NCBI GenBank assembly: GCA_949292245.1
Contig: CASEYV010000006.1
Span: forward strand, 1-37,759
Source of the DNA: an uncultured bacterium
GTDB taxonomy: Bacteria; Bacillota_I; Bacilli_A; RF39; UBA660
DNA length: 37,759 nt
Reading direction: 5' to 3'
Shown: piece after piece, positions 15,875-37,759 of the stretch
Position numbering within the stretch: the first letter of the stretch is position 1
Layout of the letters: each line of letters opens with the position of its first letter
Notes under the pieces: generated by a model
Database searches by the model: none
What the model was told of the DNA's origin: nothing
What the model saw: the letters and a program-made list of their open reading frames with translations, nothing else
Made by a program: the position numbers and the translations under genes

Positions 15875-16921
15875 ATGGAAAAAGAAAAATGGAATTTAGA
15901 ATTATCAGAATATATAAAAAGTTCTGAAGATAATACTGTAGAGAAAGCTAAAAATTGGGAAATTGCTATTGGCCTTCAAGATGTTGATGGATTAAAACCA
16001 TCGAAATATTTAATTGAAACCGCCAAAGAACATATTGAAGGTAATATTGATTTAAAAGAAGCAGAAAAAAGAATTAATCAATATTATAAAGTATTAGATA
16101 ATAGAACACTTGAAGAGGCTAGTGAAGAAGCTGATAAAGTTTCTGTAAGAATTATCGAATTATTAAGTGAAAAATCTTTTACATTTAATCCAACTGAATT
16201 AATTAATATTCACAAAAGATTATTTTCAGGAATCTTTAAGGATGCTGGAAAAATAAGAGATTATAACTTTATAAAAAACGAATGGGTTTTAAATGGTGAT
16301 ACAGTTACTTATGCATCTTTTGAAACAATTGAAGCAGCTTTAAAATATGATTTTGATGAGGAAAAAGAATATTCATATAAAGATAAAACTCTCGATGAAG
16401 CGATAAAACATTTGTGTAAATTTACTTCTAACATATGGCAAATTCATCCTTTTTGTGAAGGTAATACTCGCTCTGTTGCAGTATTTATTATTAAATATTT
16501 AAAAACATTTGGTTTTGATATTAATGATGATGCTTTTGCTAAACATTCATGGTATTTTAGAAATTCATTAGTTAGAGCTAATTATAAAAATTATGAAAAA
16601 AATGTATTTGAAGATATATCATTTTTAGAAAAATTCTTTTATAATCTTTTAACGGATACCATTTATGAACTAAAAAATAGATATACTCATGTTGATTATA
16701 AAAATCAAACAGAAGAAAATAATGAAAATATCAAGTATACTTTAGAAGAACAAGCTATTATTAATATAATAAAAAACAATCCTTCGATTACTCAAGAAGA
16801 AATTGCGGGGATTATTAATAAATCTTTAAGAACAGTAAAAACAAGAATGACTGAAATGCAAAATAAAGGGTTAATTACTAGAAAAAATGGTAAAAAGAAC
16901 GGATTTTGGATTATATTATAA
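15875..16921 (+). CDS. Fic-family AMP-transferase with C-terminal winged helix
   Basis: The 348-residue protein has a VbhA-like N-terminal region (about residues 25-75, including GLQDVDGLKPSKYL), a Fic catalytic domain and a C-terminal winged HTH (about 285-348, with ITQEEIAGIINKSLRTVKTRMTEM). The Fic motif reads HPFCEGNTRS starting at His191, the catalytic base; the canonical form is HPFxxGNGR, and Thr replaces the second Gly, as in a known subgroup. Fic enzymes transfer AMP or related groups onto target proteins and often act as toxins or regulators. I could not identify an inhibitory (S/T)xxxE(G/N) motif with confidence. The dyad upstream suggests autoregulation through the wHTH. Confidence 0.9.
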   Translation: MEKEKWNLELSEYIKSSEDNTVEKAKNWEIAIGLQDVDGLKPSKYLIETAKEHIEGNIDLKEAEKRINQYYKVLDNRTLEEASEEADKVSVRIIELLSEKSFTFNPTELINIHKRLFSGIFKDAGKIRDYNFIKNEWVLNGDTVTYASFETIEAALKYDFDEEKEYSYKDKTLDEAIKHLCKFTSNIWQIHPFCEGNTRSVAVFIIKYLKTFGFDINDDAFAKHSWYFRNSLVRANYKNYEKNVFEDISFLEKFFYNLLTDTIYELKNRYTHVDYKNQTEENNENIKYTLEEQAIINIIKNNPSITQEEIAGIINKSLRTVKTRMTEMQNKGLITRKNGKKNGFWIIL

Positions 16922-16951
16922 AAACTTGTATATTATTTTTTTTCCCAAATG

Positions 16952-16980
16952 TTGTCAAATGAAATTTATTATGATATTAT
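16952..16980 (+). promoter_or_regulatory. Promoter of the OatA-like acyltransferase gene
   Basis: TTGTCA (16952-16957) and TATTAT (16975-16980) are separated by exactly 17 bases and lie 29 bases before the ATG at 17010. Confidence 0.6.
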
Positions 16981-17009
16981 AGTTTCATAATAGCAATTAG
17001 GGTGTTAGT

Positions 17010-19217
17010 ATGAAAGATAAGAAGTATTGTACAGGTATTGATTATATTAGGGTTATAGCATGTATTGTTATATTTTTATATCATTTAGGACTTTTAAAAG
17101 GTGGATATCTTGCAGTATGCATGTTTTTTGCTTTAAGTGGATATCTTGCTTGGAAATCTGCATTTAGTGAAAAACATTTTTTAGTTAAATCCTATTTTGG
17201 TAAAAAATTAAAAAAAGTTTATATTCCTTTATTATTATTTGTTTTTGTAACTATCGCCGTAGTATCCTTAATTCCAAATGTTCACTGGGTAAATTTAAGA
17301 CCAGAAACTATTTCGATTTTATTTGGTTATAATAATTTTTGGCAATTACATGCTAATTTAGATTATTTTACAAAACAGTTAAATTCACCTTTTATTCATT
17401 TATGGTATATTTCTATCCTTTTTCAATTTTATTTGGTATTTCCTTTTATTTATATTGGATTAAGAAAAATAGGTAAAAAAATAAAAAAATCTATTCCTTT
17501 GTTTATTTCTTTAGCTTTAGCAATTATTTTTGGTGTGTATTTTTATGTTGCTAGTAAAAATCAAGATATGATGAATGTTTATTATGGAACTTTTAGTAGA
17601 TTATTTTCTTTGTTTTTTGGTTTAGCTTTAGGAGTAATCCATTCATATTACAAACCATTATTAAAAGATAAAAAAACTTTATTATATAAAATAATATTTG
17701 GAATTTGTATTTTAATATTATTAGTTTTATTTATTTTTATTGATTCTAATTCACCATATTTTGCTATAAGTATGATTGTAGTAAGTTTAATTACATGTTT
17801 ATTAATTAATGTAGTAATTTTAATAAATAAAAAATTAAATGTATTTGATAAAATTGTAAAATCTTTAGCAAATATTAGTTATGAAATATATTTAATTCAA
17901 TATCCAGTAATATATTTATTTCAATATGTTTATATAAATAATATTTTAAAAGTAATAATTATTGTTATTATTACGTTAGTATTATCTTATTTACTTAATT
18001 TTAGTTTAAAGTTTGATAAAGAAAGAAAAAATATATTTAAAGTTATATTATTAGTAATTTTTATTATAATTTCAATGTTTGGTTTTTATAAATTTGAAAA
18101 AGCAAGAGAATATATTAAACAAATGCAACAATTAGAAGAATTATTAAATAAAAATGAAAAAACTATGGAAGAAAAACAAAAAGAATATGAACAAAAGGTT
18201 AAAGATCAACATGAAGAGTATGTAATGAATATTGGTGAAATAGATGAAATTTTAAATAATTTAGATTCAACTGTAAGTAATTTATCTGTTGTTGGAATCG
18301 GAGATTCTGTTATGCTTGGGGCCGTAAATAATTTATATGATCAATTTCCTAATGGTTATTTTGATGCTAAAGTTTCTAGAGCAATGAAAACTGCAATAGA
18401 TATTTTAAATGACTTAAATAATAAAAATATGCTAGGTGATGTAATCGTCCTAAATTTAGGTGCTAATGGTGATTGTTCTTCATCTTGTAAAGATGAAATA
18501 ATTAAATCTGCGGGAGATAGAGACATATTTTGGGTTAATGTTACTAATGATGAAAATGTTCATGTTAATCAAAAATTGCAAGATTTGTCAATAAAATATG
18601 AAAATGTTCATGTTATTGATTGGAATAAAATTTCTGAAGGACATGATGAATACTTTTATGCTGATGGAATTCATCTAACCATTCCTGGAAGAAAAGCATA
18701 TACCAAAGTAATTTATGATGCTATATATCAATTATATTTAGAAAAATATAATAATAAAAAAGAAGAAATTACTAATAATTATGTTAATAATAAAATTAAT
18801 TTTTATAGTGATGATATTTTAGTAAATGCTTTAGATGAAATTGAAGATAGTGTGTCTAATGTTCAATTTGTTTTAGATAATGACTTTGATTTTGATAAAA
18901 TATATAATTTATTAAGTGAAGCAATAAAAAATAACAATTTAGGAAATAAAGTGGTTTTATCTTTTGAAACTATTAATTTAAGTTTAAAAGATTATCAAAA
19001 ATTAATAGAATTATGTCAGGATAGGCAAGTATATATTGTAGTAACAAAGGAAAGTACAATGAATAAATTGGTCGACTTAAATAATGAAAATGTAGAAATT
19101 ATAAACTTTTATGAACAAATTAAAGATAATAAAAACTATTTAATATTAGATGGATTGCATTTAAGTGATAAAGGAAGTAGTGCTTTAAGTAAAATTTTAA
19201 TTGAAGTTTTAAAATAG
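17010..19217 (+). CDS. OatA-like membrane acyltransferase with tandem SGNH-like domains
   Basis: The 735-residue protein has an N-terminal acyltransferase-3 domain (about residues 1-350, ten or so TM helices; IDYIRVIACIVIFLYHLG with catalytic His25), a charged coiled coil (about 365-405) and an extracellular SGNH domain (about 425-580). The SGNH triad is visible as GIGDSVML (Ser433) and DGIHL (Asp552, His555), with LGANGD as the Asn/Gly block. OatA-type enzymes O-acetylate peptidoglycan or other wall polymers and give lysozyme resistance. Unusually, a second domain of similar design follows (about 595-735). It ends in DGLHLSDKG but has YSDDIL where the GDS serine motif should be, so it looks catalytically dead. 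Confidence 0.88.
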   Translation: MKDKKYCTGIDYIRVIACIVIFLYHLGLLKGGYLAVCMFFALSGYLAWKSAFSEKHFLVKSYFGKKLKKVYIPLLLFVFVTIAVVSLIPNVHWVNLRPETISILFGYNNFWQLHANLDYFTKQLNSPFIHLWYISILFQFYLVFPFIYIGLRKIGKKIKKSIPLFISLALAIIFGVYFYVASKNQDMMNVYYGTFSRLFSLFFGLALGVIHSYYKPLLKDKKTLLYKIIFGICILILLVLFIFIDSNSPYFAISMIVVSLITCLLINVVILINKKLNVFDKIVKSLANISYEIYLIQYPVIYLFQYVYINNILKVIIIVIITLVLSYLLNFSLKFDKERKNIFKVILLVIFIIISMFGFYKFEKAREYIKQMQQLEELLNKNEKTMEEKQKEYEQKVKDQHEEYVMNIGEIDEILNNLDSTVSNLSVVGIGDSVMLGAVNNLYDQFPNGYFDAKVSRAMKTAIDILNDLNNKNMLGDVIVLNLGANGDCSSSCKDEIIKSAGDRDIFWVNVTNDENVHVNQKLQDLSIKYENVHVIDWNKISEGHDEYFYADGIHLTIPGRKAYTKVIYDAIYQLYLEKYNNKKEEITNNYVNNKINFYSDDILVNALDEIEDSVSNVQFVLDNDFDFDKIYNLLSEAIKNNNLGNKVVLSFETINLSLKDYQKLIELCQDRQVYIVVTKESTMNKLVDLNNENVEIINFYEQIKDNKNYLILDGLHLSDKGSSALSKILIEVLK

Positions 19218-19249
19218 TGTAATTTATATTAAAAAGGAAGTGCATAATA

Positions 19250-20599
19250 ATGTTGAAAAAAGATTTGTTAGATTTAATTTTTAATTTTGAAAAAGAAACA
19301 TGGAAATATAATAGTAATGAAAATTTAGATAAAGACATGGACTATATATATTCTATTGAAAATGCAATAAAAAATGCTTCCGATACAAATTTAAAATTGC
19401 TTTATGATAGGTTAGTAGCTTTAATTGGAATTATTAGATTAAAATATGGTTTTGAAAGTATTGTAATTAATAGCATTCCTGAATTGGAAAATTTAAAAAA
19501 TGAAATCGATGGTATTGATTTAAGTGATAATGAAATAATTACCAAATTTAATCGTATTATAAATTTATATAATAGTGTTTTAAGTAAAATTGTCGATGTT
19601 GATTTTATAAAAAACAATTATGAAGGAATTCAAGGTAAAGAAGGATTATATCTTGCAGTTGAATCTTTAAAATCTTTGATTACTAATACTGAATATAGAG
19701 CCTTAATTGGTGATAATCAAATAAATAGTATAATAGTTGATTGTATAAGTCTGAATATGGGTATTGCAAATATTAAAATACTTGAATCAAAATATAAAGA
19801 AATTATAAATTCTATTTGGGCAAGGTCATTGACAAATGAAATAAATGAAAATAATAATTTTAGATTTTTATTTTCAAATATTTCGGGTGGTACTTTAAGA
19901 GATGGCGCTATACGGTTAATAAATCGTCCTAATCAATCCTCATGCAGTATGATTAGTTCTAATTTTATAGCAACTTATGGGGATGAAACTAGAAAAATTG
20001 GATTTGTTTATCCAAGTAATTCAGACATAATTATGGCTAGTGCATATGATCTTGGTTCTAATGTTTTTGGAGAAGGATCAGTTAATAAAGAAAAAGGAAC
20101 TATTCTCGTTACACCACAAGTTTTAGAAAAAATTGGTAAAGCAAGGGCAATTAAAAATGGTGAAGATATATATTCATCTAGTTGCTATAATGAGGTGCTT
20201 GTTAATGCTAAACCTTACGGAATAGTGGTTATAGGACTGGGAGAAAGTGATTTAAATATCGATTATCAAGATGCTATAATGCTTTCTTCAGAAATGAATT
20301 TGCCAATATATTATATAGATATTATGAAATATAAAAGTAATTTATCAGAAACTGATAAAAATTATATAGCTTTTCATTCATTAATGTCTTATGTAGGAAT
20401 GTCTAGAAATGAATTATTGCAACAAGTTGAACAAAATAATGGTTGTAATGAAATATATAATCTAATTAAAATTTATAAAGAAGAATTAGTCGATATTTTC
20501 CAAACTTTAAAAAGAGATGGCAATTTAAGTAAATATAATATGTGTCAAGCAATGAGTAGTATAATAGAGATTCCTAAAAAAAATGGTAAAAATAAATAA
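19250..20599 (+). CDS. Unknown protein sharing a C-terminal domain with the 893-residue protein
   Basis: The 449-residue protein has no signal peptide or TM helix. The N-terminal half (about 1-190) is acidic and helical. The C-terminal half (about 200-360) aligns with residues about 585-840 of the protein at 27204-29885: LINRPNQSSCSMIS matches its DRP...SCSYIN, then GFVYPSNSDIIMASAYDLGSN, CYNEVLVNAKPYGIVV against YNEVVIERR...KPDYIIM, and NLPIYYID against DIPLVVID. The order SxS then NE at a distance resembles ADP-ribosyltransferase folds, but a catalytic His/Arg is not evident here (FLFSNIS replaces FLVHCVG). It lies 32 bases behind the OatA-like gene and has AAAAAGGAAG before its ATG. Confidence 0.6.
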   Translation: MLKKDLLDLIFNFEKETWKYNSNENLDKDMDYIYSIENAIKNASDTNLKLLYDRLVALIGIIRLKYGFESIVINSIPELENLKNEIDGIDLSDNEIITKFNRIINLYNSVLSKIVDVDFIKNNYEGIQGKEGLYLAVESLKSLITNTEYRALIGDNQINSIIVDCISLNMGIANIKILESKYKEIINSIWARSLTNEINENNNFRFLFSNISGGTLRDGAIRLINRPNQSSCSMISSNFIATYGDETRKIGFVYPSNSDIIMASAYDLGSNVFGEGSVNKEKGTILVTPQVLEKIGKARAIKNGEDIYSSSCYNEVLVNAKPYGIVVIGLGESDLNIDYQDAIMLSSEMNLPIYYIDIMKYKSNLSETDKNYIAFHSLMSYVGMSRNELLQQVEQNNGCNEIYNLIKIYKEELVDIFQTLKRDGNLSKYNMCQAMSSIIEIPKKNGKNK

Positions 20600-20638
20600 T
20601 TTAGTTTGTATTTTAAGTTAAAAACTGTAATAAGTGTT

Positions 20639-20667
20639 TTGGTATTGTATTTATTTTGTGCTATACT
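20639..20667 (+). promoter_or_regulatory. Promoter of the nucleotidase/nucleoside-hydrolase operon
   Basis: TTGGTA (20639-20644) and TATACT (20662-20667) are 17 bases apart, with TGC just before the -10 (extended -10). The -10 ends 17 bases before the ATG at 20685. Confidence 0.6.
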
Positions 20668-26528: not shown

Positions 26529-26552
26529 TATTAAAGAAGGTATGTGATTTTT

Positions 26553-27200
26553 TTGACAACTATTTATTTTATTAGGCATTCACAGCCATTTAGAAAATTA
26601 TTGGGTGAATATAATGCTTACGAAGATGAACAATTAAAAAATGAAAAAAACCCATTAAGTGTTAATGGTGAAAAACTTGCAGAAAAATTAAGCAAAATAA
26701 AAGAACTTCAAAATATAGATGTTATTTATTCATCTCATTATGTTAGAGCTATGTGTACTGCTAAATATATTGCTGAAAATAATAATAAAAAATTAAATAT
26801 TGATTATAGATTGGGAGAAAGAAAGTTTGGTGTTAACAATATATCGGAATTACCAAAAAATTATTTTGAAGATCAATTTAGAAATTGGAATTATAAATTA
26901 AATAATGGTGAGTCTATTAATGAAGTTTCTGTAAGAATGAATGAAGTTGTTTTTGAAATACTTAATCAAAACCGCAATAAAAGAATTGTTATAATATCAC
27001 ATGGGACTGCAATATCTGCAATGCTGATAAAATGGTGTAAAGTTATTTTAAATGAAAAGACTAAGTTAGTTGAATTTTATTTTAATAATAAATTAGTTTT
27101 TGATGGTAATTGGAATTGTCCAGAATTATTTAAATGTGATTTTGATGATGATAATCAATTAAATACTATTAAGAATATAAAATTTGATTCAGTGAGGTAA
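26553..27200 (+). CDS. Histidine phosphatase superfamily protein
   Basis: The 215-residue protein has the phosphoglycerate-mutase-like core: the catalytic motif appears as RHSQ (R8, H9; the usual RHG or RHA is RHS here), SSHYVRAMCTA with a phosphate-binding Arg, a proton donor probably in LGERKFG, and the second His in ISHGT. Such enzymes dephosphorylate sugars, nucleotides or small molecules. The start is uncertain: GTG 26544 is only 3 bases from AAGAAGG, while TTG 26553 gives MTTIYFIRH, the usual beginning in relatives. The unknown 893-residue protein starts three bases after its stop. Confidence 0.85.
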   Translation: MTTIYFIRHSQPFRKLLGEYNAYEDEQLKNEKNPLSVNGEKLAEKLSKIKELQNIDVIYSSHYVRAMCTAKYIAENNNKKLNIDYRLGERKFGVNNISELPKNYFEDQFRNWNYKLNNGESINEVSVRMNEVVFEILNQNRNKRIVIISHGTAISAMLIKWCKVILNEKTKLVEFYFNNKLVFDGNWNCPELFKCDFDDDNQLNTIKNIKFDSVR

Positions 27201-27203
27201 TTA

Positions 27204-29885
27204 ATGAATGAACTTATTAATAAATTAAAAGATATATCAAGTTTATTAGAACTAGAAAATTTAAATGATATTAATACTAATTTACTATTATATGCTATTG
27301 CAAAAAGTTATAGATATAAATTGTTAAATGGTGTAAATATAAGATTAAATGTTAATGATATTGATACGCTTGAAATGCTTGTTGATTTTTTAATAACTGA
27401 TGAAGATATACTATTTTATATGTATAAAAATGGGTTTGTTATTTCAAAAGAGGAATTAGAAGTAATTTTTAATATTGTTTTTCAAAAATATCATTATTCA
27501 TATCAATTGGAAAGTTTTTTTAAGAACTTTTTTAGAAGTGTAGATGAATTAAATGACTTTGTAAAAGAACATGATAAATTTTTTGAAAAGTATATTAATG
27601 TTGAAAATGTATACGTTCCATTAATATTAAAAGGTTGTGATAGTTTTATTGAATTAGTATTAAAAAGTAATCATTTTGAACTTATTTCTAATTTAGAAAA
27701 TTATTCATTATCTAATCTTAAATTATTAGCACAATTATTAAAGAAGAATATTAATCTTCCATATTATTTAGGTAATGATAGATATGCACAACTTTTATTT
27801 GACTTAAAATTAGATTTAAATCTAGATGAATTTTGTAATTTATTAAGTTTACTTAAAGAAAAAGCTTGTTATGATAGAAAAAATAGTGAGACAAATATTA
27901 GTTCTTTTACAAAATTAGTAAATGAAAATATAGATTATTTAATTGATGCTGCGTCTAAAACGAGTATATTACCAAAATGTTTAGTAGAATCAAGCGCTTT
28001 TAGAGATGGTTGTATAAAAAGAAATAGATTTGATCTAGCAGTTAAATGTATTTTGCCGTTAGATATTACGACAAATAGAGAATTAATGAAAGCTTACTGT
28101 AAAGAATTAAATATTGCTCCTAAAGATTTTAATGAAAGATGTACTTGGCTTTTAAATTATTATCGAAAAAACAATAATATTTTTAATACTATTATAGGAG
28201 AGTCTTTAAAAAATAATGTTTATAGTTTTAATAAAGATCATTATGAAAGATTTATAAATGATGTGGAAATTCAAATGGCTATTTCTAAGTTAAGTGATAA
28301 AGAATTGGAAGTTTTGTCAAAAATATTAAACTTTTATAATTTTAATGAATATGATATTTCAGCTATGATTGTTAATATAATTAATAATATTAGTGATTAT
28401 AAAGATTTAATAAATTCTTTGGATATAGATAATATTTCAGAACAAGATTTAAGAATGTTAGTTAGTGTTTTACAATTACCAAATAATTTATATCAAATTA
28501 ATGATTCTACAGCATTACAAAATTACAATGAATTAAAGAAACAATATTTTATGAATAATAATTCAAGTGATTTAGATGTTTATAAAAATAATTTATTAAA
28601 AATGCTATTTAATATAGATTTAAAAGAAGCAAAATATATTAATTTAAAGTATTGTTTTGAATGTAATAATCTTAAAAATACTGAATTACCATTACCAATA
28701 TATAATTATTTAGTATTAATTAATAAAATTGTTTTATCAAATAATTTAGATGAATTATCTACTTTATTTAATGATTTAAAAGATTGGATAACTTATGATT
28801 TAGAAATACCTTTTGAATCATTTTTAAGAGCTCAATATACAAATCTATATTCAAAATCTTTATACAAAATAGATGAAAGAAAGCATATTTATGGCCCTAA
28901 AGATAGTTTGTATTATGAAACAAATTATAATGGAAAAGATATTCAAATATGTGTTCCGAGAGAAAAATTTTATTTTTTGGTTCATTGTGTAGGTTCTTGT
29001 TCTTTAGCATCAGAAGTTTTTCATACAAATTATAAAATTGATTGGTTAGATAGACCACAAATACAAAATCATTTTATATCTTGTAGTTATATAAATGAAT
29101 TAGGAATATATTCTATTAGATCTCAAGGAAGTATCATTTTAGGGTTTTCTTCTTTAGAAAATAGTTCAATTTTGGGTATGGGCAATTCTGATATTGATTC
29201 CTTAGGGAGATATGCAAATTCTTATTATGGTTCGCGAGAGTTGCAAGAGGGAAATGGTACGAGAGCAAGGTATTTTATTCCTTCTGAACTTCTTAAAACT
29301 ATAAGTAATGGATATAATGAAGTTGTAATTGAAAGAAGAAATAATGATAAAGCAAAAGATAAAGAATTTAAAAGAAAACCTGATTATATAATAATGATGG
29401 CAGATTCTTTAGAACAAAGTAATTTTAATTGTTTAGAAGCTTTATATCGTAAACAATTATCATTCATATCAGAAGATGATAGAAATGTAATAAAGCAAAT
29501 GGGTAGTCGAGGTAAATTAAAAGAATTTTTAAAAAAGTATATTGATGTAATATCTCGTTTTGCTGCTCTTCAGGGATTAGATGCAAATGATTTAATTAAT
29601 ATGTATGTTGATTTAGTTTTTAAATCAAAGTATTACGAGGATTGTTTGAAAGCTGCAAGTGAATTTGATATTCCATTAGTAGTGATAGATAGAACTTATT
29701 ATTTTAATAAAATGTTAGAAGAATCTACTATATATAGTGGTGAGGAAATTAAAGTAATTTCTAGTTTTTATTCTAATGAAAGTGAATCAAGAAAAAAACA
29801 AATTTTTAATATGGTTGCAAATGGAAAAAATTTAACTTCGATTATGCAGATTAAAGGATCTAATAATTTTACAATTAGTATTTAA
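27204..29885 (+). CDS. Large unknown protein with possible ADP-ribosyltransferase-like C-terminus
   Basis: The 893-residue protein has no signal peptide or membrane helix. About residues 1-560 are Leu/Asn/Asp-rich and mostly helical without recognised motifs. Residues about 565-845 hold the domain shared with the 449-residue protein: FLVHCVGSCS (His594), HFISCSYIN (Ser626, Ser628, Tyr629) and YNEVVIERR (Glu706). His594 to Tyr629 is 35 residues and Tyr629 to Glu706 is 77; in PARP-type H-Y-E enzymes these gaps are about 34 and 92. That makes an ADP-ribosyltransferase fold worth testing but unproven. GTGAGG gives the ribosome-binding site. The gene is coupled to the histidine phosphatase. Confidence 0.6.
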   Translation: MNELINKLKDISSLLELENLNDINTNLLLYAIAKSYRYKLLNGVNIRLNVNDIDTLEMLVDFLITDEDILFYMYKNGFVISKEELEVIFNIVFQKYHYSYQLESFFKNFFRSVDELNDFVKEHDKFFEKYINVENVYVPLILKGCDSFIELVLKSNHFELISNLENYSLSNLKLLAQLLKKNINLPYYLGNDRYAQLLFDLKLDLNLDEFCNLLSLLKEKACYDRKNSETNISSFTKLVNENIDYLIDAASKTSILPKCLVESSAFRDGCIKRNRFDLAVKCILPLDITTNRELMKAYCKELNIAPKDFNERCTWLLNYYRKNNNIFNTIIGESLKNNVYSFNKDHYERFINDVEIQMAISKLSDKELEVLSKILNFYNFNEYDISAMIVNIINNISDYKDLINSLDIDNISEQDLRMLVSVLQLPNNLYQINDSTALQNYNELKKQYFMNNNSSDLDVYKNNLLKMLFNIDLKEAKYINLKYCFECNNLKNTELPLPIYNYLVLINKIVLSNNLDELSTLFNDLKDWITYDLEIPFESFLRAQYTNLYSKSLYKIDERKHIYGPKDSLYYETNYNGKDIQICVPREKFYFLVHCVGSCSLASEVFHTNYKIDWLDRPQIQNHFISCSYINELGIYSIRSQGSIILGFSSLENSSILGMGNSDIDSLGRYANSYYGSRELQEGNGTRARYFIPSELLKTISNGYNEVVIERRNNDKAKDKEFKRKPDYIIMMADSLEQSNFNCLEALYRKQLSFISEDDRNVIKQMGSRGKLKEFLKKYIDVISRFAALQGLDANDLINMYVDLVFKSKYYEDCLKAASEFDIPLVVIDRTYYFNKMLEESTIYSGEEIKVISSFYSNESESRKKQIFNMVANGKNLTSIMQIKGSNNFTISI

Positions 29886-29930
29886 AAATATAATAATGTA
29901 TTAACATAAATTTATTACTTTATAGTTTAA

Positions 29931-29962
29931 TATTTATATAAAATAAAAACCTAGGAACTTTT
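29931..29962 (+). repeat. Left copy of a 32-bp direct repeat flanking a decaying island
   Basis: The first 20 bases (TATTTATATAAAATAAAAAC) are identical to 33501-33520. The following 12 (CTAGGAACTTTT) differ at only two positions from the right copy. The right copy lies in the tRNA-Gly terminator. This suggests an integration scar, or a duplicated terminator. Confidence 0.6.
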
Positions 29963-29988
29963 AAAAATTAAGTCTATAAGATTTTATT

Positions 29989-30007
29989 AAATTTATCAGA
30001 TAAATTT
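29989..30007 (+). repeat. 9-bp inverted repeat upstream of the island's first gene
   Basis: AAATTTATC (29989-29997) and GATAAATTT (29999-30007) are perfect arms around one base, 44 bases before the extended -10 at 30051. It may be an operator, but A/T-only content makes chance occurrence possible. Confidence 0.35.
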
Positions 30008-30050
30008 TTATATCTATTTTTAAACATAATCTATAATATTTCAAAAAAAA

Positions 30051-30059
30051 TGATATAAT
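30051..30059 (+). promoter_or_regulatory. Extended -10 promoter of the island's first gene
   Basis: TGATATAAT fits TGnTATAAT exactly. The leader to ATG 30112 is about 45 bases, longer than for other genes in the window. Confidence 0.5.
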
Positions 30060-30111
30060 AATATACGTAATTAATTCATATTACTAATTTTTATTGGGGG
30101 CGAGAAAATTA

Positions 30112-30318
30112 ATGCGTTTTAAAAATCCAAGATCTTTATTATCTAATGTGTCAAATATGAAAAAATGTCAAATATTATATGAGATTGAAAATATGCAAAA
30201 TGACATAATAATAACAAATTCAATTGAAGATATTGTTGAAAATATAATAAACAGGGGACAGTACAAAAGCCAAATTGTTTTTATGATAGAAATTTTTATT
30301 ATGAAAAGTAATTTATAA
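30112..30318 (+). CDS. Small hypothetical protein (68 residues)
   Basis: The product starts MRFKNPRSLLSNVSNMKK and has a central acidic segment (ENMQNDIIITNSIEDIVENII). No family, signal peptide or motif is recognised. A GGGGGCGAG sequence precedes ATG 30112 and an extended -10 lies further upstream; a TTG at 30094 would add six residues but overlaps that site. The C-terminal part (GQYKSQIVFMIEIFIMKSNL) looks like out-of-frame or eroded sequence, so it may be the remnant of a longer gene. It begins the repeat-bounded island and precedes the HD hydrolase by 29 bases. Confidence 0.4.
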   Translation: MRFKNPRSLLSNVSNMKKCQILYEIENMQNDIIITNSIEDIVENIINRGQYKSQIVFMIEIFIMKSNL

Positions 30319-30347
30319 AGTTTTGGGGTTTATGAGTGAGGTTTAAA

Positions 30348-31451
30348 ATGAACAAATATTATGATAGTTTAAATGATGAAGTAAAAGAATATTTTAATAT
30401 TCTATCACCGGAATTTCCAGAATGGTTGGTAGAATATATTAATACTCCTGAAATGGAGAGAATTAGTAAAATTAGTATGAGTTGTGGTATGGATTATTCC
30501 AAATGCTTTAATGTTAAATATTGGTATTCGAATTTGGATCATAGTGTTGGTGTTGCATTAATTATTTGGCATTTTACACACGATAAAAAGCAAACTTTGG
30601 CTGGTTTATTTCATGACATTGCTTCGCCGGTATTTAGGCATTGTATAGATTATATGAATGGAGATTCAGAAACTCAAGAATCTACTGAAGAAAAAACTTC
30701 TGATATTATTAGAAATTCTTCAAAAATTATGAGTTTGTTAAAAAGGGATGGTATAAAATTAGAAGAAGTAGTTGATTATAAAATTTATCCCATTGCTGAT
30801 AATGCAATACCAAGATTATCCGCAGATAGATTTGAATATACTTTTGCAAGTGGATTAACTTTCTTTAGAATTTGGGAATTAGATAAAATTAGAAAAATAT
30901 ATAATAATATTGTAATAACTATAAATGAAAATGGTGCACAAGAACTTGCTTTTAGAGATAAAGAAGTTTGTGAAGAATATATAGATACAATTTCAAAATT
31001 ATGGCCTGAATGGGTAAGTGATAAAGGTAGAACAGTAATGCAATTTTTAGCAGATATGTGTAAGTCAATGAATAATGCTGGTTATTTAACAGTAGAAGAT
31101 TTATATACTCTATCTGAACAAGAAGTAATTGATAAAATTTTAACATGTGAAGATAAATATTTATCAGATTGCTTTAAACTATTTCAAGATGCAAATAAAG
31201 TTCATAAAAGTTCAATACCTGTTAGTGAAAAATATTGTGTTAATGTAAGCGCAAAAACACGATATGTTGTACCATTAGTTAAAATTGGTGATAATGCGGT
31301 TAGAATAAATCAAGTATCAAACACAGCTGCTCATCAAATTACAGATTATTTAAATTCTCCAAAAGGTGGATGTTATACATATTTTGATTTTCAATTTGTA
31401 CCTTACGGAGAAGTAGTTGCAAAAAAACTTATTAAAAAAGGCAATGTTTAA
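30348..31451 (+). CDS. HD-domain hydrolase (dGTPase/SAMHD1-like core)
   Basis: The 367-residue protein has an HD domain with H65 (LDHSVGVALI), H89-D90 (GLFHDIASPVFRH) and a later Asp in RLSADRFEYT, which is the arrangement seen in dGTPase/SAMHD1-type triphosphohydrolases and related HD proteins. A C-terminal extension of about 190 residues without motifs follows. The substrate is unknown, with nucleotides the best guess. GTGAGG (30336-30341) is the ribosome-binding site for ATG 30348; the GTG inside it would be a false start. This is the only large intact gene of the island, and the third HD hydrolase in this window. Confidence 0.82.
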   Translation: MNKYYDSLNDEVKEYFNILSPEFPEWLVEYINTPEMERISKISMSCGMDYSKCFNVKYWYSNLDHSVGVALIIWHFTHDKKQTLAGLFHDIASPVFRHCIDYMNGDSETQESTEEKTSDIIRNSSKIMSLLKRDGIKLEEVVDYKIYPIADNAIPRLSADRFEYTFASGLTFFRIWELDKIRKIYNNIVITINENGAQELAFRDKEVCEEYIDTISKLWPEWVSDKGRTVMQFLADMCKSMNNAGYLTVEDLYTLSEQEVIDKILTCEDKYLSDCFKLFQDANKVHKSSIPVSEKYCVNVSAKTRYVVPLVKIGDNAVRINQVSNTAAHQITDYLNSPKGGCYTYFDFQFVPYGEVVAKKLIKKGNV

Positions 31452-31495
31452 TCTTTATCATTTTTAAAATATATTAAATAATAAAATTTATTGTT

Positions 31496-31633
31496 ATGTA
31501 TGGCCCTGAAGCAATTCAAAATAAAAAGGCAAAAATTATTATTTCAACTAATCGTGGCAAAATAAAATTGAAAATTAAATTAAATGACTATTATTTAAGT
31601 CTAAAGGATTTTACTAATGAACCAAGTGACTAA
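31496..31633 (+). other. Short ORF or gene remnant of 45 codons
   Basis: ATG 31496 to TAA 31631-31633 encodes a lysine-rich 45-residue sequence (starting MYGPEAIQNKKAK). There is no ribosome-binding site and no family is recognised. Given the broken genes on its right, it is more likely a remnant than a functional gene. Confidence 0.25.
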
Positions 31634-31650
31634 ATTATGGAGGTGTATAG

Positions 31651-32092
31651 ATGGCTGAAATAAGTGTCTTAAATCAAAAAATATCATACTTTAAAATAGA
31701 AAATGAAGATTATATTCCAATTACTGATAAGTTTAAATCTAAAGATGGAGATTTTTTTGTCAAATTGGTTAAGAAATAGAAATACTATTGAATTCTTAGA
31801 AATTTAGGAAGAAATACATAATCTTAATTTTAATTATGGCGAATTCGCCATAATTAAAAGTCAAGCATGTTTAAATAGTTATAAAATAAGTGTTAAAGAA
31901 TGGGTAGAAAAAATTAATGTAAATGGTATAATATCAAAAGCAAGAAGATATGGTGGAACTTATGCTCACAAAGATGTTGCTTTTGAATTTGGAACGTGAA
32001 TTAGTCCAAAATTTAAACTACTTTTAATTAAAGAATTTGAAAGATTAAAAAGATTAAACAAGATAGTTTTTCACAAATCAAGTATTAAATAA
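31651..32092 (+). pseudogene. KilA-N domain protein, broken by one frameshift and two stops
   Basis: ATG 31651 behind GGAGGTG opens MAEISVLNQKISYF. At a T7 run (31752-31758) the frame shifts by one; six Ts would restore DFLSNWLRNRNTIEFLE, a hallmark of KilA-N proteins. Continuing in the new frame there is TAG at 31805-31807 where relatives have Trp, then RRYGGTYAHKDVAFEF, then TGA at 31997-31999, again in place of a Trp, and ISPKFKLLLIKEFERLKR to the final TAA. KilA-N is a DNA-binding domain of phage and mobile-element antirepressor-like proteins, so this marks former mobile DNA. The following 195 bases up to the HAD pseudogene show no convincing ORF. Confidence 0.85.
31828..31859 (+). repeat. 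Perfect 32-bp palindrome inside the KilA-N pseudogene
   Basis: The sequence reads the same on both strands from 31828 to 31859, with the centre GGCGAATTCGCC at 31838-31849. It lies between the TAG codon and the KilA-N core. Confidence 0.8.
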
Positions 32093-32287
32093 TACTGATA
32101 TGAAATATTTAAAATGAGATAATTTAAAAGGAAAATATAATATTTAAAAGGGCAACATTAGATAATTTGATAGATATTCAAATTTTAATAATAAATTATT
32201 TAAATTAGAAATTAATAATGTTTAATGATTATAAAAAAAATTAAAAAGGGATTTAATAAAAAATAATATTGTAAGGTGATATATGTT

Positions 32288-33026
32288 ATGCAAAGATTAG
32301 ATGCATTAAATTTAAAAGGAAAGAGATACATAATTTTTGATATGGATGGAACTCTAATTGACTCTATTGGTGTATGGAATAAAACAGATCAAAAATTAAT
32401 CGAAGAATATGCAAGAGTATCAAATGATTTAGATTCCATACAATTGGAAAGAGATGCCTTTCTTCATAGTAATCAAGATAGCGATATTTATTTGGCTTAT
32501 TGTGAACATTTGATTAAAGTATGATTTTAGTATTCATAATGCAGAAGAATTACTTAGAATAAGATGGGATAAATCAGGAGAAATTTTAGAAAGAGAAATT
32601 GATTTTAAACCTGATGTTCCAGAACTAATAACAAAACTAAAGCGATTGGGTTTTACTTTAATATTAGCAACTATGACAACACAAGTTCAATTAGATATTT
32701 ATTCTAAAAAGAATCAGAAAATGATAAAACAAATGGATATTTCAAAAGTATTTGACTTCATTATCAAAAAAGAAGATGTTAAAAATAAGAAGCCTGATCC
32801 AGAAATCTATAATATTATAATGAAACATTATAATGCACGACCTAATGAGTGTTTAATATTTGAGGATTCATATACAGGTGTTTTAGCAAGTAAAAATGCA
32901 GGTATTGAAGTTGTAAATGTTTATGACAAATATGCAGATTTAGATAGAAATAAAATTAATGCAATAACTGATTATAGTATTTTAAATTATAGAGAGTTTA
33001 TTGACTTTTTAGAACGTATTTATTGA
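32288..33026 (+). pseudogene. HAD-superfamily phosphatase split by a frameshift
   Basis: ATG 32288 (AAGGTGATA upstream) begins a HAD hydrolase with motif I FDMDGTLIDS. At about 32518 the frame ends in CEHLIKV followed by TGA; dropping one base rejoins KYDFSIHNAEELL in the next frame, which runs on to TGA at about 33026 through PDVPELITKLKRLGF, motif II ATMTT, motif III KNKKPDPEIY, and motif IV FEDSYTGVLASKNAG. All four HAD motifs survive, so the lesion is recent. The family is beta-phosphoglucomutase-like (phosphosugar or nucleotide phosphatases). Confidence 0.85.
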
Positions 33027-33051
33027 AAGCATCAAAGAGTAGAAGGTAACA

Positions 33052-33465
33052 ATGAAAGAAATAGATAAAATAGTTTTTATATATTTAAATAATGGTAAGA
33101 TATTAAGTATTTTATCAAAAGAAAAAAATCCTTATTATATACCAGGCGAAAAAAGAGAAAGGACTGAAACTGATGAAGAAACTTTAATTGGAGAATGTAT
33201 GGAAGAATTAACTATAGATATATTAAAAGATACAATCAAATGTTTGAGTTTTTAAAGCACAAGTACATGTCAAGGCAGAGGTGTTATAGTTAAAATGCCT
33301 TGTTATATAGCTGACTTTGAAGAAATTTTAAAACTGGCTTCAGAAATTGAAGAAATAAAGTGGCTAGATTATAGTAATTTGAAAGTGACAATTTCACCTG
33401 TTGATAAATTAATATTTAAAATTTATATGATAATCATTAAAAATATTTTAGATGAAAAAAAGTAA
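33052..33465 (+). pseudogene. NUDIX hydrolase with compensating frameshifts and a stop
   Basis: ATG 33052 opens a NUDIX domain with IPGEKRERTETDEETL...ECMEELT, a NUDIX-box-like signature in which one Gly is lost and REx2EE becomes ECMEEL. TAA at 33253-33255 ends the frame after CLSF. The family continuation is partly in the +1 frame (FKAQVHVKAE) and then back in the original frame (GVIVKMPCYIADFEEI, SEIEEIKWLDYS, SPVDKLIF) to TAA 33463-33465. An inserted T and a later one-base loss explain this. The gene sits 25 bases behind the HAD pseudogene and probably belonged to its operon. Confidence 0.8.
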
Positions 33466-33500
33466 ATTACTTTTATGATTTTTACCTATTTTTTAATAAT

Positions 33501-33532
33501 TATTTATATAAAATAAAAACTTACGAACTTTT
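33501..33532 (+). repeat. Right copy of the 32-bp direct repeat, next to tRNA-Gly
   Basis: This copy covers part of the tRNA-Gly terminator: its first 20 bases match 29931-29950 exactly and the rest nearly so. The interval between copies (29963-33500) holds mostly broken genes. Confidence 0.6.
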
Positions 33533-33547
33533 TACAGTCCGTAAGTT
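33511..33547 (-). terminator. Terminator of tRNA-Gly
   Basis: On the minus strand AACTTACGGACT (33547-33536) pairs with AGTTCGTAAGTT (33529-33518), 12 bp with one G-U, around the loop GTAAAA, followed by TTTTTATTT. It begins 10 bases after the CCA end of the tRNA. Confidence 0.85.
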
Positions 33548-33556
33548 GTATTCAAA

Positions 33557-33631
33557 TGGAGCAAGTGAGGAGGATCGAACTCCCATCTCAACCTTGGCAA
33601 GGTCGTATACTAGCCATTGTACTACACCTGC
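33557..33631 (-). tRNA. tRNA-Gly (anticodon GCC)
   Basis: Read on the minus strand, GCAGGTG pairs with CACTTGC as the 7-bp acceptor stem. The D arm contains TACAATGGCTAGTA. The anticodon stem CGACC/GGTTG closes the loop TTGCCAA with anticodon GCC, and the T arm GGGAG-TTCGATC-CTCCT follows. The discriminator T and CCA are encoded (33560-33557). The minus-strand promoter and terminator are both visible. Confidence 0.95.
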
Positions 33632-33639
33632 GTAAATAA

Positions 33640-33668
33640 ATTGTATCAAATTATTACTTTTTTTGCAA
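33640..33668 (-). promoter_or_regulatory. Promoter of tRNA-Gly
   Basis: On the minus strand TTGCAA (33668-33663) and TACAAT (33645-33640) are 17 bases apart, and the -10 is 8 bases before the mature tRNA 5' end. Confidence 0.6.
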
Positions 33669-33674
33669 CAATAA

Positions 33675-33703
33675 TTGCTAAAAAATGTAATTATTGCTAT
33701 AAT
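33675..33703 (+). promoter_or_regulatory. Promoter of the LTA-synthase-like operon
   Basis: TTGCTA (33675-33680) and TATAAT (33698-33703) are 17 bases apart with TGC before the -10. The -10 ends 22 bases before ATG 33726. It is divergent from the tRNA promoter. Confidence 0.65.
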
Positions 33704-33725
33704 GGTATTTGTAAGAAGGGAATTT

Positions 33726-35747
33726 ATGAAAGAAAAAATAAAAAAAACATATAGAACAATTCGTAAAAGTATTGTTGAATATACAATAACAAATCGTCTA
33801 TTTATATCATATGTTATATTGGCTCTTTTAGGAACAATGACCTTAAGATATTTTACTTTGGGTAATTTTTTCTATTTTAAATCTTTTATAACTGATTTAG
33901 CAGTTATTCTAATTATCGGAGGATTAGGATATTTTGTTAAACCTAAAAATCAATTTAAGTATTATTTTATTTGGTTGATTATTTTTACTATTATTAATGT
34001 AGTAAATTCTATTTATTATAAATTTTATGATAATTTTACATCTGTTGGCTACTTATCTACTGTTTCACAAGCGGAAACTGTAACAGGTTCAATTTTTGAA
34101 AAATTAAGTTTTTATGATATTATGTATATATTTGTTCCTATAATCTTTTATATTATTCACAAAAAATTATTATCATCATCTTATTATTATTTTATTGATA
34201 AAATTGAAAAAGGGAAAAAGATGGTTGTAACAACACTATTAGTTGGTGTACTTTGTTTAGGATATAGTTTTGGTGTGGCAACAGGAAAGGATTATTCACG
34301 TCTTGCTAAACAATGGAACAGAGTCTATGTAGTTGAACGATTTGGAATATTACTTTATCAAGCAAATGATGTTGTTCAAGTATTAAGATCTCAATTAAGT
34401 AGTTTATTTGGGGAAGAAGAAGCCCTTGAAGCTTTTAATGCTTATTTTGATGCTAAGGAAGAACATGAAGAAAATGATTACACGGGAATTTTAAAAGGTA
34501 AAAATATTGTTTTTGTTCATATGGAAGGTATTCAAACATTCTTAATGGATTTAGAATTTAATGGCCAAGAAGTTACTCCAAATTTAAATAAACTTGCTAG
34601 TGAAGGTATGTTTTTCTCAAACTTTTATCCACAAGTTAGTACAGGAACATCTTCTGATACAGAATTTACTTTATTAACGGGACTTATGCCTGCGGCGAGT
34701 GGAGCAGTTTTCACAAGTTATTATGATCGAACTTATTTTACTATTCCAAAATATTTAAGTAGTTTAGGTTATTATACTTATAGTATGCATGGTAATGCCG
34801 ATACTATGTGGAATAGAAATATGGCTCATCCATCTTTGGGTTATGAAGGAATGTATTTTGAAGAATCATTTATTTATGAGGATACTGATGTTATAAATCT
34901 AGGAATAAACGACCAATTATTTTTTAAACAAGCAATACCAATTATGGAAAATATTGAAAATACATATGAAAATTATATGGGGTATGTTATTACTTTATCT
35001 AATCATTCACCTTTTAGTGATGCTGCTACTCATAGTACTTTAGATTTAACTAGTTACTATACGGAAATTGATGAAATTACAATGGAAGAGATAGAAAAAA
35101 GTATGGATTATTTATCTGATACAGCAGTAGGTGAATATATTAGAAGCGCTAATTATGCTGATATTGCTTTAGGAGAATTTTTACAATATATAAATGAATC
35201 AGATGCTTTTGATGATACTATATTTGTCTTTTTTGGGGATCATGATGCTAAATTAAATCGTAGTGATATTAATTATTTATATAATTTAAACCCAGTTACT
35301 GGTAAAACTTATAGTGAAAATGATGAAGAATATGTAGAATATGACTACTATGATCATGAACTAAATAAAAAGACTCCATTAATAATTTGGACAAAAGATA
35401 AAAGTTTAAAAAATGTATTTAAAGGAGAAATTACATATTATACAGGTATGTATAATGTCGCTCCAACTATACTAAATATGTATGGATTATATAATAAATA
35501 TACTGTTGGTGATGATATATTTAATTCCAAAGAAGATAATATAATAGTATTTCCTAATGGTAATATTTTAACAGAAAAAGTATATTATAATAATTCAACT
35601 GGTGAATATAAAGTTTTAGAAGATGGTGCTAGTTTAGATGAAGATTATATTTATGATATAAGTCTAATTGGAGAAAGTCGTTTAGAAATATCTAATTATA
35701 TAATAGTTTATAATTTACTAAATCAAGTAACTATGACAGGTGAATAA
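33726..35747 (+). CDS. LTA synthase family membrane phosphotransferase
   Basis: The 673-residue protein has about five N-terminal TM helices (residues 25-180) and an extracellular sulfatase-fold domain (about 255-610). Family motifs are VFVHMEGIQ (metal-binding Glu267), TGTSSDTEF around the active site and FFGDHDAKL (metal ligands). LTA synthases use phosphatidylglycerol to build or decorate glycerol-phosphate polymers on the outer face of the membrane. In S. aureus LtaS the nucleophile is Thr300 in GKTSDSEF; by alignment the equivalent here is Ser309, or Thr308 beside it. ATG 33726 has AAGAAGGG 5 bases upstream; an earlier in-frame start lies within the promoter. Confidence 0.92.
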   Translation: MKEKIKKTYRTIRKSIVEYTITNRLFISYVILALLGTMTLRYFTLGNFFYFKSFITDLAVILIIGGLGYFVKPKNQFKYYFIWLIIFTIINVVNSIYYKFYDNFTSVGYLSTVSQAETVTGSIFEKLSFYDIMYIFVPIIFYIIHKKLLSSSYYYFIDKIEKGKKMVVTTLLVGVLCLGYSFGVATGKDYSRLAKQWNRVYVVERFGILLYQANDVVQVLRSQLSSLFGEEEALEAFNAYFDAKEEHEENDYTGILKGKNIVFVHMEGIQTFLMDLEFNGQEVTPNLNKLASEGMFFSNFYPQVSTGTSSDTEFTLLTGLMPAASGAVFTSYYDRTYFTIPKYLSSLGYYTYSMHGNADTMWNRNMAHPSLGYEGMYFEESFIYEDTDVINLGINDQLFFKQAIPIMENIENTYENYMGYVITLSNHSPFSDAATHSTLDLTSYYTEIDEITMEEIEKSMDYLSDTAVGEYIRSANYADIALGEFLQYINESDAFDDTIFVFFGDHDAKLNRSDINYLYNLNPVTGKTYSENDEEYVEYDYYDHELNKKTPLIIWTKDKSLKNVFKGEITYYTGMYNVAPTILNMYGLYNKYTVGDDIFNSKEDNIIVFPNGNILTEKVYYNNSTGEYKVLEDGASLDEDYIYDISLIGESRLEISNYIIVYNLLNQVTMTGE

Positions 35748-35748
35748 T

Positions 35749-36381
35749 ATGAAAAAAACAATAAAAAAAGGAGTAAAGAAAATATTATTAATAATAATAG
35801 TTCTTTTAATATTGCTAGTTATAAGTTTAATTATTTATAAATTATTAAATAATAATAGTGATAAAGAAGATATTAAGGTAGTAGATAGTATAGAAAAGTA
35901 TGGATATAATTTAGATGATAGAGATAGTGCTTTAATGAAAAGCAAATATGAAGAATTAAAAAAAGTACTAAATAGTGATGAAATAAATTATGAAGAATAT
36001 GCTAAGATATTATCTGAATTATTTGTTATAGATTTATTTACTATGAATAATAAAATTAATAAATATGATGTCGGTAGTGTAGAATATGTATATACTGATT
36101 CTGTTGATAATTTTAAATTAAATGTTGAAGATACTATTTATAAGCATATGGAAAATAACTCAGATGGTAAAAGAAAACAAGAATTGCCAGAAGTTAAAAG
36201 TATAGAAGTTGTAAGTATAAATAGTGATGAATTTGAAATTGATGAAGAAAGTTATGAAAGCTTTGTTGTTGATTTAGATTGGAATTATGTTAAAGATTTA
36301 AGTTATGATAATACTGCCACAATAACTTTAATTAATTTAGATAATAAATTATATGTAGTAGAATATCTTGTAGGAGAATAA
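35749..36381 (+). CDS. Single-pass membrane protein in the cell-envelope operon
   Basis: The 210-residue product has a Lys-rich N-terminus, one TM helix (about residues 11-32), and an acidic extracellular domain of about 175 residues with no recognised motif. Its stretch INKYDVGSVEYVYTDSVDNFKLNVEDTIY and the C-terminal beta-rich part look like a small folded domain. AGGTGA precedes ATG 35749; an in-frame GTG at 35740 lies inside that site. It starts one base after the LTA-synthase-like stop and precedes the LCP gene by six bases, so it probably assists the same envelope process. Function is unknown. Confidence 0.7.
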   Translation: MKKTIKKGVKKILLIIIVLLILLVISLIIYKLLNNNSDKEDIKVVDSIEKYGYNLDDRDSALMKSKYEELKKVLNSDEINYEEYAKILSELFVIDLFTMNNKINKYDVGSVEYVYTDSVDNFKLNVEDTIYKHMENNSDGKRKQELPEVKSIEVVSINSDEFEIDEESYESFVVDLDWNYVKDLSYDNTATITLINLDNKLYVVEYLVGE

Positions 36382-36387
36382 TTAGGG

Positions 36388-37759
36388 ATGAAAAAAGTAT
36401 TAAGAAAGTTGAAAAGATCTAAAGAAATATATAGATATTTGTATTATATAATAGGAATTATATATATAATTTCTTTGTTTTTCTTTATAAAAAGTTTATT
36501 AAATTTAAAGGGTATAGAAACAACTCTTAGATTTATATTTATTATATTTTTTATTCTTTATTTAATATTATACTTATTTATTAATTTAGCAAATTTGATT
36601 AAACATAAATATAAAGTATTTATACTTACTTCATTAATATCTATAATATTTATTTTAATATTTTGTTTTGGTTCATATTATATAAATATTATTTATAATA
36701 ATTTAAATAATATGACTGATGATGAAAACTTAGTTTATACTAGTTTGCTTATTTCTTTAAAAGATACTGATTTTGATAATAAATCTATTATAGGTATGAT
36801 TAGTAATGAAGAAGAAGTTGAAGGAAATATATTAGCTAAAAAGTTATATAGTAAAGAAAAGTTAGCTAATAGTATAGAAGAATATGATGATTATTATCAA
36901 TTAATTAAGGATTTATATGATGAAAAAATAGATGCAATATTTGTTCCAAGTAATTATGTAACTTTATTTAATGAAGAAGAAAATTATAAAAATATAGCAA
37001 GTGATACTAAAATATTATATAAATATAGTGAAGAAAGAGAAAACGAGGATTTAATATTATCTAGTAATAAAACATTTGAAGAACCATTAACATTTTTACT
37101 TTTAGGTGTTGATTCTGAGACAGCATTTAATGGAGATACCTTAATGATTATTACTTTTAATCCAGATACATTACAAACTACAATGGTAAGTATTCCAAGA
37201 GATACTTATGTACCTATTACTTGTCGTAATGATAATTATGCTAAAATTAATTCTGCTGCAGCATATGGAACAAGTTGTGTGGTTGATACAGTTAGTAATT
37301 TTTTGGATATTGAAATTGATTATTATGTTAAAATTAATTTTAAAGGGGTAGTTGAATTAGTTGATGCTATTGGGGGAATTGAAGTTGATGTAGAAGCACC
37401 AACTTATAATGCCGGTAAATATGATGGTAAGATGTGTGAACAAAATTCTGATAGATTATTTGGTGATCATTTAGTTTGTGTTGAACCGGGGTTACAAACA
37501 TTAAATGGTGAACAAGCTTTAGCATATGCTAGAAATAGGCATTTATATATAGGCAGTGATTTAGATAGAATTAGACATCAACAACAAGTAGTTGAAGCTA
37601 TAGCTAATAAAGCTTTAGGTTTTAGTAGCGTAAAATCATTACAAGACATATTAAATGCTGTAAGTAATAATATTGCAACAAATATGGATATTGATGCGAT
37701 ATTATCTGGTTATAGTGTAATTAAAAATATGGTTGCAAATGTTTTAAGTGGTGAAGATT
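36388..37759 (+). CDS. LytR-CpsA-Psr (LCP) family wall-polymer ligase, 3' end outside the window
   Basis: The reading frame from ATG 36388 (AGGAG upstream) is open to the window edge: 457 codons. It has three TM helices near the N-terminus (about residues 17-37, 47-68 and 74-96), an extracellular linker and an LCP domain from about residue 232: LLLGVDSE, SIPRDTYVP (conserved Arg271), and ALAYARNRH with DLDRIRHQQQVV. LCP enzymes transfer teichoic acids, capsule or other glycopolymers from lipid carrier to peptidoglycan. It shares an operon with the LTA-synthase-like gene, which fits envelope-polymer assembly. The C-terminus is missing. Confidence 0.9.
   Translation, partial: MKKVLRKLKRSKEIYRYLYYIIGIIYIISLFFFIKSLLNLKGIETTLRFIFIIFFILYLILYLFINLANLIKHKYKVFILTSLISIIFILIFCFGSYYINIIYNNLNNMTDDENLVYTSLLISLKDTDFDNKSIIGMISNEEEVEGNILAKKLYSKEKLANSIEEYDDYYQLIKDLYDEKIDAIFVPSNYVTLFNEEENYKNIASDTKILYKYSEERENEDLILSSNKTFEEPLTFLLLGVDSETAFNGDTLMIITFNPDTLQTTMVSIPRDTYVPITCRNDNYAKINSAAAYGTSCVVDTVSNFLDIEIDYYVKINFKGVVELVDAIGGIEVDVEAPTYNAGKYDGKMCEQNSDRLFGDHLVCVEPGLQTLNGEQALAYARNRHLYIGSDLDRIRHQQQVVEAIANKALGFSSVKSLQDILNAVSNNIATNMDIDAILSGYSVIKNMVANVLSGED

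Follow-up and report, generated by a model that had tools for sequence, protein, structure and literature searches.

What lies between two near-identical repeats beside a transfer RNA (tRNA) gene, and how did it come to be there? The question is raised by a locus in the genome of an uncultured bacterium of the RF39 lineage (Bacillota_I; Bacilli_A; RF39; UBA660), on a stretch of 37,759 nucleotides (assembly GCA_949292245.1, contig CASEYV010000006.1, positions 1 to 37,759) that is referred to below as the window. Here a tRNA-Gly(GCC) gene on the minus strand (33557-33631, identified with ARAGORN) is adjoined at its 3' end by 3.5 kb of DNA that holds three pseudogenes and is bounded by a direct repeat. 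The region 29914-33562 is most probably the wreck of a small site-specific island, part of a stack built up by accretion behind the 3' end of this tRNA gene. We read it as such because same-genus relatives (given handles such as G001; the window's own genome is G000) carry displaced copies of the tRNA-Gly terminator, an empty site (in G013) and a filled site (in G019).

The two copies of the repeat (29931-29962 and 33501-33532) are identical at 30 of 32 positions; a preliminary description made from the sequence of the window alone had called them near-identical. The right one forms the far half of the hairpin of the tRNA-Gly(GCC) terminator. This terminator, which now serves tRNA-Gly (33501-33556, minus strand; hairpin of -15.6 kcal/mol; cmsearch E 2.4e-16), is called T1 when taken together with the last six bases of the tRNA. 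Those six bases (33557-33562, minus strand; TGGAGC on the plus strand) include the encoded CCA, are common to the tRNA and to the displaced copies in relatives, and form the putative crossover region.

The exact 20-base core of the repeat occurs twice in the whole window, and the preliminary description judged such a match unlikely by chance. This holds for the 7-kb region, where an exact 20-mer repeat arises in 1 of 500 Markov shuffles, but not for the whole window, where one arises in 27 of 200 shuffles and where a second, unrelated exact 20-mer repeat is present (5928/28175). The core by itself is therefore weak evidence, and the repeat is convincing because of its position at a tRNA terminator and because of the relatives, not because of its length. 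It had also been held that wide occurrence of the repeat as a generic terminator would speak against an island. For the window's own genome this candidate explanation was rejected, as a search found only these two sites plus weak partial matches of about 30 bp; in relatives, T1-like terminators are found also at tRNA-Gly(TCC) and at one tRNA-His (G023, L131 2033-2176).

Copies of T1 ending in TGGAGC are found without a tRNA in G001, G003, G005, G019, G022, G023 and other genomes. Most of them contain the terminator in full together with the tRNA 3' end, with divergence beginning directly after TGGAGC. The empty site of G013 has a single copy, in the order 421-aa (amino acid) gene, T1, tRNA. 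At the filled site of G019 the same 421-aa gene precedes, in this order, a T1 copy (98.6% identity to the one in G013), ATGGAGC, an island and a second T1 with TGGAGC; the island, of 2.4 kb, carries a 267-aa gene, a gene for an HD-domain-like protein (HD gene, 45% identical to that of the window) and a 94-aa gene. To judge from the sequences, this is the layout of the window in a fresher state. The preliminary description had seen in the window the remains of a site-specifically integrated element, and had looked to an empty site with one repeat copy for confirmation; the G013/G019 pair bears out the former and supplies the latter, for a related island at this locus and not for the exact island of the window.

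Further states of the site are seen in other relatives. In G001 a 9.9-kb element stands between tRNA-Gly and the T1 that adjoins the same NUDIX remnant as in the window, the split falling exactly at TGGAGC. In G044, a decayed T1 is followed by a KilA-N piece and other genes, and then by T1 and tRNA-Gly. The latter is a case of both repeats with unrelated content between them, which had been named beforehand as an observation against an island; it does occur, but is no refutation, because a reused integration site predicts the same.

The ends of the islands that we assign to type T indicate where exchange would take place. Joining the T1 end to the type-T distal end of G019 gives GTCCGTAAGTTGTATTCAAATG-GAGC-GAATCACATACAAGTTACGAAC, in which two inverted half-sites of 22 bases form a 22-4-22 dyad. 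With the ends of G019 or G044 the half-sites agree at 15-16 of 22 positions (P 1.5e-4 or less), and the right arm of the window's T1 set against type-T distal ends likewise gives a dyad of 15/22 (P 5e-5 to 1.5e-4). Type-P ends were tested for such a dyad and the result was not significant. In sequence, the type-T dyad is built like the attachment site attP of a large serine recombinase, with the tRNA 3' end at its centre; the right arm of T1 therefore appears to serve both as the proximal half-site and as a terminator arm. A hairpin followed by T's lies within about 75 bases of the tRNA in all of the tRNA-proximal flanks tested at tRNA-Gly genes (17/17, mostly island ends of several sequence types), with energies of -6.7 to -15.6 kcal/mol; only 3% of control pieces reach -5 kcal/mol. 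Islands push out the resident terminator and supply another.

The left copy is probably a whole displaced T1 in decay, comprising the terminator and the equivalent of the tRNA 3' end. It probably runs from 29914 to 29999, so that the coordinates first given for the repeat (29931-29962, its best-kept part) were nearly right. We assign the tRNA-end part with moderate confidence: positions 29971-29999 match the right arm of T1 and the tRNA end at 18 of 29 bases, which is equalled at 14 of 12441 control positions (about 1 in 1000), and TTTATC stands in place of TGGAGC. In a search with a covariance model of 24 T1 copies, the left copy ranks third in the window (E 0.013), behind two matches on T1 itself; cmsearch revealed no further decayed T1 copies to its left in the window beyond noise. 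The flank 29917-29962 is 91% identical over 46 bp to the tRNA-Gly(TCC) terminator regions of G001 and G012, in which the 94-aa gene, complete in G012, comes after T1. A type-T distal end was looked for directly after the left copy and was not found. The right end of the island appears intact, and the left end decayed.

The likely movers are Ccr-like large serine recombinases. At tRNA-Gly in G001, G005, G002 and G004, a protein of about 90-110 aa is encoded together with a large serine recombinase of 600-643 aa. The G001 enzyme carries Resolvase and Recombinase domains (PF00239 and PF07508) and matches the CcrB profile at 1.7e-45, below the Ccr cut-off; the elements of G001 and G005 also encode a MobA/VirD2-type relaxase. 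In G043, a partial T1, the 94-aa gene, a recombinase and the HD gene lie on one contig, and in G007 a relaxase piece is found near an HD gene that is 77% identical to that of the window.

The small proteins, of about 92 aa, fall into two groups that are related to each other (hhalign probability 80, E 1.5e-5). Their profile has matches in 18 of 30 same-genus genomes and in 17 of 198 genomes of a class-wide sample, all but one in the same family; in plasmid records the small protein had no match. At 42 of 54 distinct loci the small protein starts within 130 bp of the 3' end of a tRNA or transfer-messenger RNA (tmRNA) gene and in the same orientation as that gene, and it is usually followed by a large serine recombinase. 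Ten types of target gene are represented (Gly, His, Leu, Met, Cys, Thr, Trp, Arg, Phe and tmRNA), and the CCA is encoded in every target RNA gene of these loci (42/42). A half-site motif starts 12-13 bases past the CCA at 23 of 38 distinct ends, compared with 1.6% of control pieces; in T1 it lies at 13 bases (counted by eye).

In the genome of the window itself, tRNA-Gly(TCC), tRNA-Met, tRNA-Leu and tmRNA have elements of the same kind beside them; the recombinase of the one at tRNA-Gly(TCC) is frameshifted. The small protein is encoded on contig 7 near 41595 (L148, tmRNA) and on contig 5 near 27865 (tRNA-Met) and near 41670 (tRNA-Leu), with a serine recombinase beside it at the first two of these sites. 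The preliminary description had found that no integrase remains. This is correct for the island, as the list of open reading frames (ORFs) and Pfam searches show no integrase and no relaxase gene between the repeat copies, for which reason we regard it as a remnant; it does not extend to the genome, given the recombinases at its other RNA genes. The profile search of the genome placed no remains of the ~92-aa gene on the window's contig.

From this we infer a catalyst and an order of events. Islands would recombine within TGGAGC, where the tRNA gene ends with its encoded CCA, and each newcomer would shove the resident terminator, with a copy of the tRNA end, away from the tRNA while supplying another at the end that borders the tRNA. 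T1, as the right copy, would thus be the terminator delivered by the latest arrival. The left copy would belong either to the arrival before it or to the original site, having been displaced by the window island and now decaying. The likely catalyst would be a Ccr-like large serine recombinase, encoded beside its ~92-aa partner just inside the tRNA-side end of intact islands. Both genes would have been lost from the window island, leaving the HD gene and the three pseudogenes.

Several observations weigh against this reconstruction. The exact empty site of the window's own island was not found in the relatives. The left copy's extension to the tRNA end is only moderately significant, and the covariance-model match stops short of that end. 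The island has no recombinase, no small protein and no intact distal end, so that its assignment to type T is made from T1 and the HD gene. At least two islands at tRNA-Gly use other means: on contig 9 of G019 a tyrosine-type integrase (identified by eye) lies beside tRNA-Gly, and the island of G022 has a longer tRNA duplication of about 47 bases. Finally, identity between the window and G001 breaks inside the T1 hairpin, falling from about 98% up to 33529 to nine differences in about 34 bases (33529-33562 against L047 15086-15120), which recombination at the tRNA end leaves unexplained, and in G043 the sequence after the left arm of T1 is no clear T1.

These last breaks would speak for integration inside the terminator hairpin, by strand exchange in the T1 loop with duplication of the left arm only. 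The obvious identity of the window's two copies also stops in the loop, at 33532, close to the G001 break after 33529, and in G043 the left arm passes into different sequence. The preliminary description had similarly placed the target in the terminator and not in the tRNA. We nevertheless consider exchange in the loop unlikely, and the earlier placement of the target is not upheld: in relatives the displaced copies mostly retain the complete hairpin together with the tRNA end and break after TGGAGC, the centre of the attP dyad coincides with the tRNA end, and in the window's left copy the right arm and tRNA-end position are still recognisable.

The possibility that no site-specific element was involved was considered as well, the left copy being a segmental copy made by homologous or slipped recombination between the terminators of tRNA-Gly(TCC) and tRNA-Gly(GCC). 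The resemblance of its outer flank to the tRNA-Gly(TCC) terminator region of G001 and G012 speaks for such an event. The same flank, however, is part of the end of the island with T1 and the 94-aa gene at both loci, the content between the copies recurs in relatives, and the window genome's own tRNA-Gly(TCC) locus is without T1 and bears another island end, all of which makes this explanation very improbable. We would give equally little credence to integration by a tyrosine integrase, as is usual at tRNA genes, with later loss of the enzyme. In favour of this are one such enzyme adjoining tRNA-Gly in G019, a duplication in G022 such as these enzymes make, and phage-type integrases in the window's genome. 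But displaced copies of the T1 type mostly share just 6-7 bases with the tRNA, which is what a serine recombinase leaves behind, the half-site in T1 makes a dyad together with the type-T distal end, and the relatives of the HD gene accompany a serine recombinase or a relaxase.

If a serine recombinase did place islands at the tRNA-Gly end, as we prefer, this would be an uncommon choice of target. The targeting of tRNA genes by serine recombinases is described in the literature as unknown or rare, with phiRSM1 and the actinomycete integrative and conjugative elements (AICEs) of Mycobacterium named as exceptions (PMC3218068), and Islander excluded serine recombinases because tRNA targeting was treated as the domain of tyrosine integrases (PMC4383910). 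A search of the open-access literature, which by this restriction is no proof of novelty, returned no paper joining a large serine recombinase, tRNA-Gly and an integration site.

The nearest relatives in kind are the ssrA islands of Dehalococcoides with DsiB (McMurdie et al. 2011, PMC3146451). There, too, an RNA gene (tmRNA) has a CcrB-like large serine recombinase next to its 3' end, islands stand in tandem, repeats of the RNA 3' end form their bounds, and some members have no integration module. They differ in having one target gene, a 20-bp repeat, insertion in the T-loop and two serine recombinases in a six-gene module, and terminators are unmentioned in that paper; the islands described here use at least 10 RNA genes, would exchange strands where the CCA is encoded, have a single recombinase accompanied by a ~92-aa protein, and carry a terminator at their end. 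With SCCmec and ECC elements (CcrAB, CcrC; PMC6222049) they share a Ccr-type recombinase (profile matches of 1e-23 to 1e-45), a target at the 3' end of a conserved gene and variable cargo. The target of the SCC elements is rlmH, however, and here it is tRNA-Gly; there is no CcrA/B pair, several elements carry a relaxase, and the recombinases of the relatives score far under the Ccr cut-offs (155.7 against 900).

Integrative and mobilizable elements and their cis-mobilizable derivatives (IMEs and CIMEs; PMC5704250, PMC5357655) resemble these islands in their size of about 9-10 kb, in the integrase and relaxase of intact members, in accretion at one site and in remnants that retain attachment sites. 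In a survey of streptococci, however, IMEs with serine integrases mostly disrupt protein genes, whereas here the ends of tRNA and tmRNA genes are used and left unbroken, and the window island, unlike an IME, has neither integrase nor relaxase, although G001 and G005 have both at the same tRNA. The tyrosine-integrase islands of Islander (PMC4383910) are alike in their tRNA 3'-end target, in the displaced fragment at the far end and in their tandem arrays, but not in enzyme family, no tyrosine integrase being present in the window island.

We lean slightly towards a broader proposal, that Ccr-like serine recombinases form a family in which every enzyme has its own ~92-aa partner, perhaps a specificity or direction factor, and which lands on the shared encoded CCA end of tRNA and tmRNA genes, supplies a new terminator, and so builds arrays of defence-carrying cassettes, some of them recombinase-free and moved in trans, behind at least 10 RNA genes in one family of uncultured Bacilli. 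If this is true, large serine recombinases with dedicated tRNA and tmRNA targets would be an addition to integration biology, offering new integrases and landing sites of a kind present in every bacterium, and the arrival of a fresh terminator would account for the survival of an essential tRNA through one insertion after another. The window island itself is dead and ordinary; its value is as the trace that leads to the recombinase family.

The cargo of related elements includes several systems of defence type, among them a FokI-like restriction system that lies with an AAA ATPase in the G001 element. In G003 (L051 7268-9790) and G040 (L128 140-2592) a common 2.3-kb retron-type cassette is found, with an RT_Ec107-like protein and an AAA ATPase; its proteins are 99% identical between the two genomes, and it has no recombinase but the same ends as the serine-recombinase elements of G001 and G005, which suggests mobilisation in trans. 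In G007 (L123 1353-4009) the HD gene stands third in an operon resembling a cyclic-oligonucleotide-based anti-phage signalling system (CBASS), after a CD-NTase (PADLOC cyclase, 4.7e-92) and a 4TM effector (1.9e-55); the G007 HD protein itself has no match in PADLOC. By analogy, one might guess at a defence role for the HD gene of the window.

That gene is an intact ORF encoding 371 aa (30336-31451, plus strand) which the preliminary description had missed and which has relatives in same-genus mobile elements. Its product is HD-domain-like, with H69, H93-D94 and D164 conserved and a Pfam HD match (E 0.0024) under the cut-off; apart from the G007 gene, it is 45-47% identical to genes in G019, G043 and G008. 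No relatives were found among solved structures, and the AlphaFold model (mean pLDDT 43.9) is too poor for use. Upstream of it, a short ORF of 74 aa (30094-30318, plus strand) is probably a gene remnant, for which a search found no relatives. The three pseudogenes, all on the plus strand, were correctly named in the preliminary description, as Pfam matches and reading frames confirm. The KilA-N pseudogene (31657-32093; Pfam KilA-N 1.6e-9) has a frameshift and a stop and is 85% identical to a piece located between tRNA-Gly and a displaced T1 in G018. The HAD-hydrolase pseudogene (32276-33026) consists of two ORFs in different frames (Pfam HAD_2 2.9e-4, and 2.8e-18 for the second piece). The NUDIX pseudogene (33052-33465; Pfam NUDIX 3.4e-5 with X at the stop) has an in-frame stop that is the same in G001, with DNA identity of 96.8% over 32995-33562.

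To the left of the left copy lie a histidine-phosphatase gene and an 893-aa gene (26544-29885, plus strand; Pfam His_Phos_1 6.3e-24). Relatives of the phosphatase are found near displaced T1 copies in G013 and G019 and also in G007, at a distance of a few kb from the HD gene there, and the two genes are probably cargo of an older, displaced island. Still further left, 16387-20641 is 99.3% identical to G001, compared with 88.9% for the flank 33556-37759, and is probably a recent transfer. The segment 20642-32994 is absent at that place in G001, where the equivalent of 16387-20641 is joined directly to the NUDIX remnant; transfer and deletion have therefore probably both reworked the locus. Within the KilA-N remnant of the window lies a perfect 32-bp palindrome (31828-31859, seen in the sequence), which is kept at 94-100% in the KilA-N remnants of G018, G012 and G043.

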